Assembly: GCA_900316305.1 (NCBI GenBank)
Contig: ONCM01000020.1
Coordinates: 87,178-151,177 of the forward strand
Direction of reading: 5' to 3'
Length of the DNA: 64,000 bases
Source of the DNA: an uncultured Bacteroidales bacterium
Lineage (GTDB): Bacteria; Bacteroidota; Bacteroidia; Bacteroidales; WCHB1-69
Made by a program: the position numbers and the translations under genes. Shown in pieces: positions 4,082 to 23,003 of this stretch; position 1 is the first letter of the stretch, and each line of letters begins with the position of its first letter. Under the pieces are notes generated by a model. It saw nothing but the letters and a program-made list of their open reading frames with translations, did no database searches and was not told where the DNA came from.

Positions 4082-4534
4082 ATGGCATTAGAACAAAAGA
4101 TCAACGAAGACATCAAGGCCGCTATGCTGGCCCGCGAATCACAGAAGCTCAACGCCTTGCGCGCCGTAAAATCCGCTATTTTACTGGCCAAGACCCAGAA
4201 GGGTGGTGCCGGCGACCTGGACGAGGAGTCCGAAATCAAGATCCTCAAGCAGCTGGTGAAACAACGCCAGGAGTCGGCCGAGACTTACAAGGCACAAAAC
4301 CGCGAAGACCTGGCCGCCGAGGAGCAGTTCCAGATGGACGTCATCAAGAACTACATGCCCAAAATGCTCTCGAAAGAGGAAATAGAAGCCACGTTAAAGA
4401 AAATCATCGCCGACAACGGTTTCAGCGGCATGAAGGACATGGGCAAGGTAATGGGCATGGCTACCAAAACCTTCGCTGGCAAGGCCGACAACAAGATGGT
4501 GTCCGACAGCGTGAAAACTCTTTTGGCCCAATAA
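4082..4534 (+). CDS. GatB/YqeY domain-containing protein
   Basis: A 150-residue protein of the YqeY family, the stand-alone version of the tRNA-binding tail domain of GatB/GatE. Seen in the sequence: the N-terminal helix pair (LEQKINEDIKAAMLARESQK), LRAVKSAI, and the C-terminal GMKDMGKVMGMATK motif typical of the family. Its exact role is not settled; homology to the amidotransferase tail suggests tRNA binding. It is followed by lpxB after 8 bp, so the two are likely cotranscribed. The presence of GatE 14 kb away, which carries the same tail fold, makes its tRNA link worth noting. Confidence 0.9.
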   Translation: MALEQKINEDIKAAMLARESQKLNALRAVKSAILLAKTQKGGAGDLDEESEIKILKQLVKQRQESAETYKAQNREDLAAEEQFQMDVIKNYMPKMLSKEEIEATLKKIIADNGFSGMKDMGKVMGMATKTFAGKADNKMVSDSVKTLLAQ

Positions 4535-18405: not shown

Positions 18406-18425
18406 TTCCAAACCTCCAATACGCG

Positions 18426-18461
18426 AAAAGCGGTCCGATTATTCCGGGCCGCTTTTTTTTT
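18426..18461 (+). terminator. Intrinsic terminator after rpsA
   Basis: AAAAGCGG-T-CCG pairs with CGG-G-CCGCTTTT across ATTATTC, followed by a run of nine T. Confidence 0.9.
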
Positions 18462-18496
18462 GTGAAAGAATTTGGAAAACAAAAAAATTAATTTTT

Positions 18497-18504
18497 TATC
18501 TTTG
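18497..18504 (+). promoter_or_regulatory. -7 box of the gatE-gatD operon
   Basis: TATCTTTG followed by CGG. Transcription is expected near 18511, leaving a leader of about 125 nt before gatE. Confidence 0.75.
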
Positions 18505-18636: not shown

Positions 18637-20586
18637 ATGCAAACGATTAATCCACAGAAGAATTACGAGGCCAGCAGAGACGCCATCGGCTATGTTGACC
18701 GGAAGAAGGCCACGCAGGCCGACTACGACCGCATCGGGTTCATGTCGGGACTGGAAGTGCACCAGCAGCTGGCCACCAAGGAGAAACTGTTCTGCCGCTG
18801 TCCCGCCGGCATTTTCCAGAAACCGGACCAATTTGACGCGGAGCTGCTGCGCCACATGCGCCCCACCCTCTCCGAGATGGGCGAGTACGACGGCACCGCG
18901 CTCATGGAGTTTAAGACGCGCAAGAACATCATCTACCGCATCGCGCACCGCACAGCGTGCACGTACGAGGTCGATGACACCCCGCCGTTCCCCATCAACC
19001 CCGAGGCGCTGCAGTACGCCCTCGAAATCGCCCTCGCTTCCAAGCTGAAGATCGTGGGCGAAGTCCACATCACCCGCAAACAGTACCTCGACGGTTCCAT
19101 CCCGACGGGCTTCCAACGCACCGCCATCCTCGGCATCGACGGCGAAATCCAGCTGCGGAAGAAAAAAGTGCGCCTCATCCAACTCAGTGTGGAGGAAGAT
19201 GCCTGCCGTGAGGTTTCCGATATCGGACATACCCGTATCTACCGCACCGACCGCCTGGGAATGCCTCTGATTGAGACGGTTACGTATCCCGACATGATCA
19301 ATCCCGACGAGGTGGAGGAAGCCGGCAACGTCATCCGTTTCATTAACCGCAGCACCGGCCGCGTGCGCACCGGCATCGGCGCCGGCCGTCAGGACGTGAA
19401 CGTGAGCTGCAAGGGCGGCACCCGTATCGAGGTGAAGGGCGTGGCCCACACCAAGTGGATTCCAGAGGTCACCCACGTGGAGTGCTTCCGCCAGTGGGCG
19501 CTGCTCGCCATCCGTGAGCAACTCAAGTCCCGCATCAGCAAGGAAAATTGGAAAATGAGCTATATGGAACTCTGTCCCAAGGAGTTCCACTTCTATTTCG
19601 ATCCCATCACCGACGCCATCAAGCGCGGAGAAAAGGTCTATATTGTTAATTTGCCGCAATTTGCAGGCTTGCTCTCTCACTTTACCCAACCCGGTCATCC
19701 GTTCTACAGCGAATTCGCTGACAGATTGAAGGTTATCGCCTGTCTGGAGCGTCCGAACATGGCCACGAGCGAAGATCTGGAAGATGTGGTGAGCCGCAGC
19801 GTCTTCGAGAAGGCAGCGAAAGCCCTCAACGCTGGCGACAACGACGCGCAGATCATCTTCTGGGGTCCCGAAGACGACGTGAAGACCGCCTTAGAGACCA
19901 TCGAAGAGCGTGCGCTGATGGCCTTCGACGGCGTGCCGCAGGAGACCCGCAAGGTGCTGCCCGACGGCACCACCATCTTCGAACGCGTGCTGCCCGGTGC
20001 CGACCGCATGTACCCCGACACCGACTCCGCGCCCATCCCGTTGACCAACGACTACATCGAGGAGCTGAGAAAGAACATTCCCGAGTCCATCGCCGACCGT
20101 TACGCGCAACTCGACAGCTGGGGCGTTCCGAAAGACTGTTACAAATACATCTTCACCTACAACTTCTTCCCGCTCATTAAGCGGATTGTCAACGAGTTGG
20201 ATGTCTGCCCGAAATTCATCGGCACCTTCTTCGGCCACCGGCTCAAGTACCTGAACGGTCAATACGGCAACATCCCGTTCTACACGGATCGTATATACGA
20301 CCTCTTTGCTTTCCTAAAACAAGAAGGCATTGACAAGGCCATCGCCCGCGATATGTTGGAGGAAATGTTCATCTATCCCAATGCAGAAATGCCGCAGATA
20401 CTAGGACTCGCCGGTTATAAGAAGATGACCAAGCAGGAAATCGAAGATCTGTACAACATGGCTATCAGTGATTTCGAACCTTACCGGACTCGCAGCAACG
20501 ACAACGATAAACGCAACTATGCCATCGGTAGGGTTAGACGCAGAGCTATTGGCAACGCCGCATTTACCGAATTAGCCAAGAAATAA
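18637..20586 (+). CDS. gatE: Archaeal-type Glu-tRNA(Gln) amidotransferase subunit E
   Basis: A 649-residue protein of the GatB/GatE family. GatE takes ammonia from GatD, activates Glu on tRNA(Gln) with ATP and makes Gln-tRNA(Gln). The GatB/E kinase core is clear: GLEVHQQLATKEKLFCRCP (about 38-56), EVDDTPPFPINPEAL, HITRKQYLDGSIPTGFQRTA, QLSVEEDACR, YRTDRLGMPLIE and GIGAGRQDVNVSCKGGTRIE. Length and the inserted AspRS-like (GAD) domain at about residues 290-430 fit GatE, not bacterial GatB (about 480 residues); the Cys-x-Cys pair and 'FQRT' also match GatE. The helical and YqeY-like tail follows. GatD lies next. Start set at 18637 (MQTINPQ), since earlier ATGs lie in the leader. Confidence 0.92.
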   Translation: MQTINPQKNYEASRDAIGYVDRKKATQADYDRIGFMSGLEVHQQLATKEKLFCRCPAGIFQKPDQFDAELLRHMRPTLSEMGEYDGTALMEFKTRKNIIYRIAHRTACTYEVDDTPPFPINPEALQYALEIALASKLKIVGEVHITRKQYLDGSIPTGFQRTAILGIDGEIQLRKKKVRLIQLSVEEDACREVSDIGHTRIYRTDRLGMPLIETVTYPDMINPDEVEEAGNVIRFINRSTGRVRTGIGAGRQDVNVSCKGGTRIEVKGVAHTKWIPEVTHVECFRQWALLAIREQLKSRISKENWKMSYMELCPKEFHFYFDPITDAIKRGEKVYIVNLPQFAGLLSHFTQPGHPFYSEFADRLKVIACLERPNMATSEDLEDVVSRSVFEKAAKALNAGDNDAQIIFWGPEDDVKTALETIEERALMAFDGVPQETRKVLPDGTTIFERVLPGADRMYPDTDSAPIPLTNDYIEELRKNIPESIADRYAQLDSWGVPKDCYKYIFTYNFFPLIKRIVNELDVCPKFIGTFFGHRLKYLNGQYGNIPFYTDRIYDLFAFLKQEGIDKAIARDMLEEMFIYPNAEMPQILGLAGYKKMTKQEIEDLYNMAISDFEPYRTRSNDNDKRNYAIGRVRRRAIGNAAFTELAKK

Positions 20587-20596
20587 TTAACGAACA

Positions 20597-20662
20597 TATT
20601 CCAAAAAGGGCTGAAAGCCCGACCTAAGTCAACCCAGGGTGAAGCGAAGCGGAGCCCTGGGA
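20597..20662. repeat. Dispersed repeat (AAGGGCTGAAAGCCC ... CCCAGGGT...ACCCTGGG), copy 1
   Basis: Two adjacent hairpins, GGGCTGAAAGCCC and CCAGGGTGAAGCGAAGCGGA-type ending in GCCCTGG, sit in the 94-bp gap between gatE and gatD. A reverse-complement copy lies at 22938-23003, so the gatD gene is framed by inverted copies. Confidence 0.7.
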
Positions 20663-20680
20663 CAACAAAAACAAAGAAAT

Positions 20681-22159
20681 ATGGAAAATAACGATAAAGT
20701 CACATTCCAAGGATACAAAGGCAGAGCACTGGAAATGCTCAAAAAATACGATGTCCATGTGTGGGACAAGGCCGAGGTCGAGACCACCCGCGGACACTTC
20801 TCGGGCAAGATCCTGCCCAGAGCCGAGAACACCGACGACATCCACATCGTCATGAAGGTGGCCACCGGCTACAACATCGGCATCGATATCGAGACGGTGA
20901 CCGACATGAAGGGCGAGCGCGACCCGCAGCCCGTCTTCAAGATTCCGGAAAAGGAGTTCCCTTACACACCCGGTCTGCCGCACGTGAAACTGTTAGGCAC
21001 CGGCGGCACCATCGCCTCGCGACTGGACTACCGTACGGGAGCCGTAATTCCCGCCTTCTCGCCCGGCGAGCTGTATGGTGCCGTGCCCGAGCTGGCCGAC
21101 ATCTGCAACCTGGAGACCGAAAAGGTCTTCGCCGTATTCTCCGAGAACATGTCGCCCGTGGAGTACAAAGCCTTAGCACAAAAGATTGGCGATGAGGTGA
21201 AAAAAGGCATCGAGGGCATCGTAATCGGTCACGGTACAGATACGCTGGCGCACACCGCCACCGCGCTCACCTACATGTGCCAGAATTTGCCCATGCCCGT
21301 GGTGCTGGTCGGTTCTCAAAGAAGTTCCGACCGTCCGAGCTCCGACGCGGCGTTGAACCTCATGCACGCCATGACGGCCGCCGGTCACGGAGACATCGCC
21401 GAGGTGATGGTCTGCATGTTCGGACCCACCAGCGACGACTACGGTTTCCTGCACCGCGGTACTCGCGTGCGCAAGATGCACAGCTCCTACCGTTCCACGT
21501 TCCGCACCATCGGCGACACGCCGTTAGCGACAGTGAACCGCAAGGACGGCGTGCAGCCCATTAAGGAAGTCTATAACCACCGTAGAAAAGGTCAACACCG
21601 TCAAGTCGAGGTCATCACTAACTACGAGGACTACAAGCGCAGTTTGGCCCTCAACGACCCGAACGTCACCCGCATCGTGCCCACCTTCGACGACCGCGTG
21701 GCCATCCTCTACTACTATCCGGGCATGAAACCCGATGTGTTGGATGCGCTCATCGACAACGGATACAAGGGCATCGTGTGGGACGGCACTGGCTTGGGCC
21801 ACGTCAACAAGCACATGTTCGATGCCATCCAACGCGCCACCGACGCGGGCGTACACCAGTACATGAGCGTGCAGACCATCTGGGGCTACACTCACATGTT
21901 CGTCTATGACACCGGCCGTGACATGATGGCCCGCGGCATCATCCCCGCCGACAACATGCTGGCGGAAAGCTCTTACATTAAGCTCGGCTGGGCGCTCGGC
22001 CTCACCAAGGACAGCGGCCAAAAGCGCGAAGATGTGAAGAAGCTGATGCTTACCCCCATCAACGACGAAATCACCAAACGCGAACCCTACGACGGCTACC
22101 TCGTCTATCAAGGCGGCGTGCCGGAAGTCGAGGAGTTCGTGAAGAAAGTCCGCAAATAA
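20681..22159 (+). CDS. gatD: Archaeal-type Glu-tRNA(Gln) amidotransferase subunit D
   Basis: A 492-residue L-asparaginase-type glutaminase that frees ammonia for GatE. The N-terminal 90 residues carry the GatD-specific barrel (GHFSGKILPRAENTDDIHIV, TGYNIGID), absent from true asparaginases. The asparaginase domain has the catalytic set: Thr110 (LLGTGGTIAS), Thr186-Asp187 (GHGTDTLAHTA) and Lys265 (RVRKMHSS). Their spacing (76, 1, 78) agrees with that known for archaeal GatD (76, 1, 76). It is longer than archaeal GatD (about 430). Start at 20681; the longer frame begins in a repeat. It follows gatE after 94 bp and ends at a TTAGCAG array and a terminator. GatD orthologues are known almost only from archaea. 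Confidence 0.94.
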   Translation: MENNDKVTFQGYKGRALEMLKKYDVHVWDKAEVETTRGHFSGKILPRAENTDDIHIVMKVATGYNIGIDIETVTDMKGERDPQPVFKIPEKEFPYTPGLPHVKLLGTGGTIASRLDYRTGAVIPAFSPGELYGAVPELADICNLETEKVFAVFSENMSPVEYKALAQKIGDEVKKGIEGIVIGHGTDTLAHTATALTYMCQNLPMPVVLVGSQRSSDRPSSDAALNLMHAMTAAGHGDIAEVMVCMFGPTSDDYGFLHRGTRVRKMHSSYRSTFRTIGDTPLATVNRKDGVQPIKEVYNHRRKGQHRQVEVITNYEDYKRSLALNDPNVTRIVPTFDDRVAILYYYPGMKPDVLDALIDNGYKGIVWDGTGLGHVNKHMFDAIQRATDAGVHQYMSVQTIWGYTHMFVYDTGRDMMARGIIPADNMLAESSYIKLGWALGLTKDSGQKREDVKKLMLTPINDEITKREPYDGYLVYQGGVPEVEEFVKKVRK

Positions 22160-22218: not shown

Positions 22219-22250
22219 CGAGCCGTCACAATGTGGCGGCTCGAGTTTTA
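22219..22250 (+). terminator. Terminator between gatD and lptE
   Basis: CGAGCCGTCACA pairs with TGTGGCGGCTCG (one G-T pair) over a tight loop, followed by AGTTTTAT. It lies between convergent genes. Confidence 0.85.
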
Positions 22251-22937: not shown

Positions 22938-23003
22938 TCCTAGGGCTCTGCTCTGCCTCACCCTAGGCTAACATACGTCGGGCCTTCAGCCCTTTTGGAA
23001 TAA
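22938..23003. repeat. Dispersed repeat, copy 2 (inverted relative to 20597)
   Basis: CCTAGGGCT...CACCCTAGG followed by GGGCCTTCAGCCC, the reverse-complement layout of the element between gatE and gatD. Confidence 0.7.

Follow-up and report, generated by a model that had tools for sequence, protein, structure and literature searches.

Bacterial GatDE beside GlnRS: an intact amidotransferase of the archaeal kind in an uncultured Bacteroidales genome

The Glu-tRNA(Gln) amidotransferase GatDE is described in the literature as an archaeal enzyme. In the portions cited here, two reviews confine it to archaea (PMC9499178, PMC8007984), one of them with the wording "only in archaea missing AsnRS" (PMC8007984), and a further paper gives it for archaeal genomes (PMC7373986). 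The cited part of one review also states that archaeal GatDE uses the A1:U72 pair and the D-loop of tRNA-Gln (PMC9499178). A survey of bacterial GlxRS enzymes takes a missing GatCAB to mean a defunct indirect route, Bacteroidetes included, and its text nowhere uses the word "GatDE" (PMC3927822). Among the matches listed in searches of the open-access literature, a scope outside which most subscription journals lie, no title or abstract opening was on bacterial GatDE; automatic annotation may already name such genes. Here we describe an adjacent gatE-gatD pair in a 64,000-nucleotide stretch of contig ONCM01000020.1 (assembly GCA_900316305.1) from an uncultured Bacteroidales bacterium, hereafter the window, and consider what this pair might do in a genome that also encodes glutaminyl-tRNA synthetase (GlnRS).

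Both window proteins score above curated cut-offs for GatDE. GatE reaches 412 bits against TIGR00134 gatE_arch (cut-off 319.6) and 468 bits against the GatE model NF003107 (cut-off 456), whereas the best GatB model yields 134 bits, below its cut-off of 338. Pfam GatB_N is matched at 161 bits, the motif GLEVHQQL is intact, and many columns are conserved in an alignment of GatE relatives. The initial annotation had given the protein 649 residues, which the open reading frame bears out, and a GAD-type insertion, for which the evidence is weaker than was implied: all 95 positions of the GAD model are covered, but at 21.9 bits, just below the cut-off of 23.4, and AspRS chains appear only as weak matches in a Foldseek search with the predicted structure. 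That AlphaFold model (mean predicted local distance difference test score 82.7) is helical from residue 471 onward. A putative YqeY-like C-terminal tail matches PF02637 at 21 bits, below the cut-off of 27. In the same Foldseek search, the archaeal GatE chains 1zq1_C (E 2.7e-43) and 2d6f outrank all GatB chains, with 32-35% identity to the archaeal GatDE structures in the structural alignments, and 2d6f_C and 1zq1_C are also the top phmmer matches in the PDB.

GatD passes two curated GatD models (459 bits against TIGR02153 gatD_arch, cut-off 324) and finds 2d6f_A and 1zq1_A as its top phmmer matches in the PDB. It contains both Pfam asparaginase domains and also exceeds the cut-off of the type I asparaginase model TIGR00519, although at a lower score than for the GatD models. 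The GatD-specific N-terminal barrel proposed earlier is recovered as Pfam GatD_N (PF18195, 39.6 bits, cut-off 25.7), and the proposed Thr/Thr-Asp/Lys set is likewise complete: the motifs TGGT, GHGTDT, and RKMH lie at positions 107, 183, and 264 of the 492-residue protein and align with both archaeal chains. We take these three motifs to supply the catalytic Thr, Thr-Asp, and Lys of GatD. They are kept in 95 or 96 of 96 GatD frames picked from 130 loci, a picking that itself required GHGTDT. With both subunits over curated GatDE cut-offs, archaeal GatDE structures as best matches, and the catalytic motifs in place, the identification made in the initial annotation is confirmed: the pair encodes a genuine, intact GatDE in a bacterial genome, neither GatB nor a plain asparaginase. 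Elsewhere in the window, at 4253-4528 (G000:C58:91430-91705, where G000 is our handle for the host genome), a frame of about 165 amino acids matches the GatE model tail (E 2.2e-5); it is probably a stand-alone YqeY-like protein, a name that follows from this match.

The host genome (3.28 Mb, 99 contigs, 97% complete) encodes GlnRS as well. A match of 773 bits at C22:48319-49893 corresponds to an intact 543-amino-acid open reading frame starting with ATG, and this rules out the loss of GlnRS that had been suggested for this organism. The genome also contains AsnRS and a single GluRS at E <= 1e-30. GatB was not found, the sole GatB match in the genome being GatE itself at 84.7 bits; GatA and GatC were not searched. 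All 45 tRNA matches are given ordinary types by ARAGORN, among them two tRNA-Gln genes (anticodons UUG and CUG) and two tRNA-Glu genes (UUC and CUC). Both tRNA-Gln genes have U1-A72, G2-C71, and A73, so that the first acceptor pair follows the bacterial pattern and not the archaeal A1-U72 rule against which it was to be compared. GatDE sits beside GlnRS and has not replaced it. It is highly improbable that GatDE is the main source of Gln-tRNA in this host, as the initial annotation proposed: the absence of GatB would fit such a role, but the same cell has an intact GlnRS, and its tRNA-Gln genes carry U1-A72 and G2-C71 like those of its relatives.

We consider it reasonably probable that GatDE is accessory to GlnRS and, for repair or as a backup, amidates mischarged Glu-tRNA(Gln), which gives Gln-tRNA(Gln). 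By analogy with the archaeal enzyme, GatD would free ammonia from glutamine (or asparagine), and GatE would activate the gamma-carboxylate of the Glu on misacylated Glu-tRNA(Gln) and install an amide in place of the activated carboxylate, giving Gln-tRNA(Gln). We infer both the tRNA substrate and the role in repair or backup. GatDE would most likely mend Glu-tRNA(Gln) misformed by GluRS or GlnRS; alternatively, it may act as a backup when direct charging is insufficient.

Coexistence with GlnRS extends well beyond the window genome. Among 247 genomes drawn from the order, with a threshold of E <= 1e-40, a GlnRS match was found in 99 of the 107 genomes with GatE over the cut-off and in 129 of the 140 others (missing in 8/107 and 11/140, respectively). 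GlnRS is thus similarly frequent with and without GatE, and GatDE is therefore no substitute for it. Outside the window's class, 19 of 21 GatDE-bearing genomes of the phylum have GlnRS, compared with 39 of 78 GatDE-lacking genomes that were hand-chosen from 202 to span families (Fisher P 0.0009). Within the families that hold GatDE, 17 of 20 GatDE-lacking relatives also have GlnRS and the difference is gone; the association is a family-level pattern and no independent test. GlnRS even adjoins gatED in two genomes, one from the window's order and one from another class, lying upstream on the same strand at L301 and convergently at L302. These two loci were picked for an adjacency seen in coordinates; they stand among 145 stretches with GatE, the rest of which mostly had 1.5 kb or at most 6 kb of flanking sequence. 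In three GatDE-bearing genomes of other classes (G116:C81, G294:C1, G172:C4), about 130 bases separate the gltX match from the glnS match.

Counts of genomes in both draws are not independent of kinship. In the phylum draw of 296 genomes, 22 exceeded the GatE cut-off, namely the window genome and 21 of 223 from other classes, with none among 70 genomes of the same class outside the order or among two further genomes of the order. The phylum is GTDB Bacteroidota in the broad sense, its sampled members including genomes that match named Ignavibacteria-type assemblies; the GatE rows of G116 and of one such assembly, L121, are identical. In the order draw, two of three sampled congeners have GatE. 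Families represented by two or more genomes number 98; 34 are uniformly GatE-positive, 48 uniformly negative, and 16 mixed, compared with a mean of 55 mixed families in 2,000 shuffles; in two of the mixed families (f72 and f97), fragmentary GatE was counted as negative. Presence of GatE tracks families, which is what an old gene subject to loss would show, and the age that the initial annotation assigned to GatDE in this lineage holds in this respect. An alignment of 15 GatE sequences, scanned against a genome collection, retrieved at least 552 relatives. The ranking reflects similarity to a query of Ignavibacteria type, so that archaea are not to be expected among the best 80; these are all bacterial by title and cover about a dozen phylum names: Ignavibacteria, Kapabacteria, Aminicenantes and other Acidobacteriota, Phycisphaerae, Latescibacterota, Calditrichota, Cloacimonetes, Neomarinimicrobiota, Krumholzibacteriota, KSB1, Gemmatimonadetes, Zixibacteria, and Aegiribacteria. 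All 80 are metagenome-assembled, four of them titled chromosomes. Viral contigs yielded no GatE relative, and plasmids a single archaeal record. In 131 of the 146 stretches examined, a gatD gene was located close to gatE (with some flanks cut and some genomes present twice); no other neighbor is conserved, the next cluster occurring at 7 of 80 loci and in 3 of 15 stretches. In G392 (L311), an open frame of about 650 codons separates gatE from gatD, which are mostly adjacent elsewhere.

The printed view of GatDE as archaeal would favor a recent archaeal import or an assembly artefact, explanations to which together we assign a very low probability. In a quick tree of 126 GatE rows, 123 bacterial sequences are split from 3 archaeal ones by a fully supported branch, and the sequences of the order, including that of the window, form one group that contains one outsider (L024). 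Of 130 loci, 8 had no clean frame and are left out of this tree, in which the Natrinema row is short (448 amino acids) and sits on a very long branch. GatE is carried both by two of the three sampled congeners and by single-contig genomes, of which G507, G132, G294, and G124 have GatE and GlnRS on one contig. Because these genomes hold both genes, and because four relatives are titled chromosomes, misbinning is unlikely as a general explanation of bacterial GatDE. By the tree, recent import from archaea into this genome is very unlikely. The present data neither establish nor disprove a gain of GatDE from archaea; the split from the three archaeal rows disfavors a recent one. With only these three rows and with a GatB-rooted tree that is itself unresolved (bacterial GatE rows together in 59% of bootstrap trees), the GatE sequences cannot tell an ancient transfer from great age of bacterial GatDE. 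The outsider L024 belongs to a genome of another class (G156) that also has GatB; its nested GatE may reflect transfer or misbinning.

Comparison of the window genome with two congeners gave ratios of nonsynonymous to synonymous substitution rates (dN/dS) of 0.05-0.10 for GatE and 0.02-0.04 for GatD; with dS at 0.8-2.2, near saturation, these ratios are approximate. They point to strong purifying selection on gatED, as for genes that are maintained and not decaying. A functionless relic of a former indirect pathway is for this reason improbable, a judgment also in keeping with the open frames, the family-coherent retention, and the GatD motifs of the picked frames, although GatE was not found in one congener (G296) and falls below the cut-off in 140 of the 247 genomes of the order.

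Several observations weigh against an accessory role on Glu-tRNA(Gln). More than half of the sampled genomes of the order have no GatE over the cut-off. Adjacency to GlnRS is rare, with no instance among 80 named loci examined up to 6 kb on each side. The acceptor end and discriminator base of tRNA-Gln are the same in GatDE-bearing and GatDE-lacking genomes of the order: U1-A72 is found in all 28 genes from 22 GatDE-bearing genomes and all 49 genes from 32 GatDE-lacking genomes, A73 in 28/28 and 47/49, respectively, and the 3:70 pair is mixed in both sets. The search pattern fixed the D-arm, so that D-loops are not comparable, and it had no match in 20 of the 78 genomes. The tRNA-Gln genes of the GatDE-lacking congener G296 are identical to those of the window genome, and U1-A72 differs from the A1:U72 pair reported for archaeal GatDE in the part of the review cited above (PMC9499178). 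Nor does GluRS show a GatDE-linked change at Arg358, the sole residue examined, which all 30 genomes compared retain, whether they bear GatDE or not. Arg358 is a discriminating residue according to the cited portion of the bacterial survey (PMC3927822). It is also kept in G287, which has no GlnRS match over the cut-off, and it therefore decides nothing here on GluRS discrimination. The initial annotation required a non-discriminating GluRS, a conclusion that is not compelled; the one known discriminating residue checked is retained, poor marker though it is. As a separate observation, G3-C70 occurs in 5 of 77 tRNA-Gln genes of the order (L097, L104, L225-L299), and A73 in 75 of 77; the cited part of the same survey describes G3-C70 as absolutely conserved in tRNA-Gln of GlnRS-bearing genomes (PMC3927822).

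Two other functions could account for a maintained enzyme. Bacterial GatDE may have been re-purposed for a different tRNA or for a non-tRNA glutamate, an idea that draws on the redundancy of the canonical reaction with GlnRS and on the lack of visible co-adaptation in tRNA-Gln. We regard it as unlikely: conservation extends to the catalytic motifs and to many columns of GatE, the GatE model has the fold of the tRNA-binding protein, all 45 host tRNA matches are of ordinary type, and gatD is the sole conserved neighbor. GatDE could instead provide a condition-dependent second route from Glu to Gln-tRNA(Gln) for times when free glutamine is scarce, in which asparagine might donate the ammonia. 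The anatomy would be the same, GatD belongs to the asparaginase superfamily, and patchy yet family-coherent retention would suit an ecological trait. Such a route requires that GluRS charge tRNA-Gln appreciably, and the discriminating residue is present in all 30 genomes, even if G287 shares it; we think it no more probable than re-purposing. Repair or backup of Glu-tRNA(Gln) beside GlnRS remains the interpretation that we prefer. More tentatively, and with rather less confidence, we suggest that GatDE forms a large bacterial family, spanning about a dozen phylum names and missed so far because the enzyme was regarded as archaeal, that performs "editing by conversion" of Glu-tRNA(Gln) beside GlnRS without hydrolysis; such editing might set the rate of Glu-for-Gln errors. 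For genomes bearing GatDE, the inference of a defunct indirect route (PMC3927822) need not hold.

A minority of GatDE-bearing bacteria has no evident GlnRS. We surveyed 69 GatDE handles, the window genome included and two genomes present twice (G066/G543 and G116/G544); 54 exceed the GlnRS cut-off and 15 do not. Among these 15, seven have GatB (fragmented in G582), two have a partial GlnRS (G567 and G584), and six have neither GlnRS nor GatB (G546, G552, G553, G554, G572, and G585). The six are metagenome-assembled genomes of unstated completeness, with GatE on contigs of 6-15 kb. When 16 GlnRS-less genomes were searched again at E 0.001, 9 of them had matches, all below the cut-off, and nine frames from 8 such genomes are GluRS-like by motif. 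G572, a Neomarinimicrobiota genome (L173, L316, L325), combines GatDE with two GluRS-like frames and has neither GlnRS over the cut-off nor a GatB match besides GatE, within an assembly whose completeness is not stated; it is possibly the best lead to a bacterium with GatDE as its main Gln-tRNA route. One genome of the order, G369, lacks GlnRS and any GatB-like match although it is 99% complete. Genome gaps are the likelier cause in GatE genomes of the order such as this one, because its congener G472 has GlnRS and because GlnRS is absent equally often with and without GatE.

The features of the locus are collected in Table 1. The gatE frame begins at an ATG within a longer open frame. For gatD, a GTG at 20639 would give 506 amino acids; the tabulated ATG is more likely as the start, since the frames of two congeners give 490 and 493 amino acids. 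Terminator-like hairpins in the region are not above chance (5 found, 5.1 expected in shuffles). The candidate promoter follows what we take to be the Bacteroidota consensus; its pattern has 2 matches in the window where 1.7 are expected by chance, and its position is what speaks for it. Between gatE and gatD (20603-20661) lie a short palindromic element AAAAAGGGCTGAAAGCCC, which reappears at 22980-22997 with 2 mismatches, and a second one, CCCAGGG...CCCTGGG.

Table 1. Coordinates of gatE, gatD, and flanking candidate sites in the window
Feature	Position	Strand	Description
Possible promoter	18471..18504	+	Bacteroidota-type, TTTG-N22-TATCTTTG, upstream of gatE
Terminator-like hairpin	18425..18457	+	Between gatE and the S1-like gene (named by eye) that precedes it
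gatE	18637..20586	+	Open reading frame, 649 aa; subunit E of Glu-tRNA(Gln) amidotransferase: kinase/transamidase with candidate GAD-like insertion and predicted helical tail
gatD	20681..22159	+	Open reading frame, 492 aa from ATG; subunit D: GatD_N barrel and asparaginase-like ammonia donor
Terminator-like hairpin	22219..22243	+	3' of gatD, 11 pairs

The window locus can be placed against three known systems. GatD shares its catalytic core with type I L-asparaginases, as its TIGR00519 score indicates, but unlike them it carries GatD_N and adjoins gatE. Bacterial GatCAB beside GlnRS, as in Thermus, Deinococcus, Pseudomonas, and Bdellovibrio, offers a parallel in that an amidotransferase and the direct synthetase coexist (PMC3927822, PMC4206432, in the portions cited). 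In those bacteria GatCAB is discussed for Asn on tRNA (PMC4206432, likewise in part), whereas here AsnRS is present and GatB absent, and GatDE is a different heterodimer, reported for Gln only. To archaeal GatDE (Methanothermobacter 2D6F, Pyrococcus 1ZQ1) the likeness covers both subunits, their domain content, the catalytic motifs, and the GatE fold; the differences are a bacterial host with GlnRS, tRNA-Gln with U1-A72, and a GatE that groups with bacterial sequences, separate from the three archaeal rows. The bacterial set bears on the question of whether GatDE dates to the last common ancestor. Together with GlnRS it forms a combination not reported in archaea in the cited part of the literature (PMC9499178), which makes the use of a redundant amidotransferase testable. 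What these genomes hold is the same kind of enzyme as archaeal GatDE in a new setting: an intact, widespread bacterial GatDE next to GlnRS.

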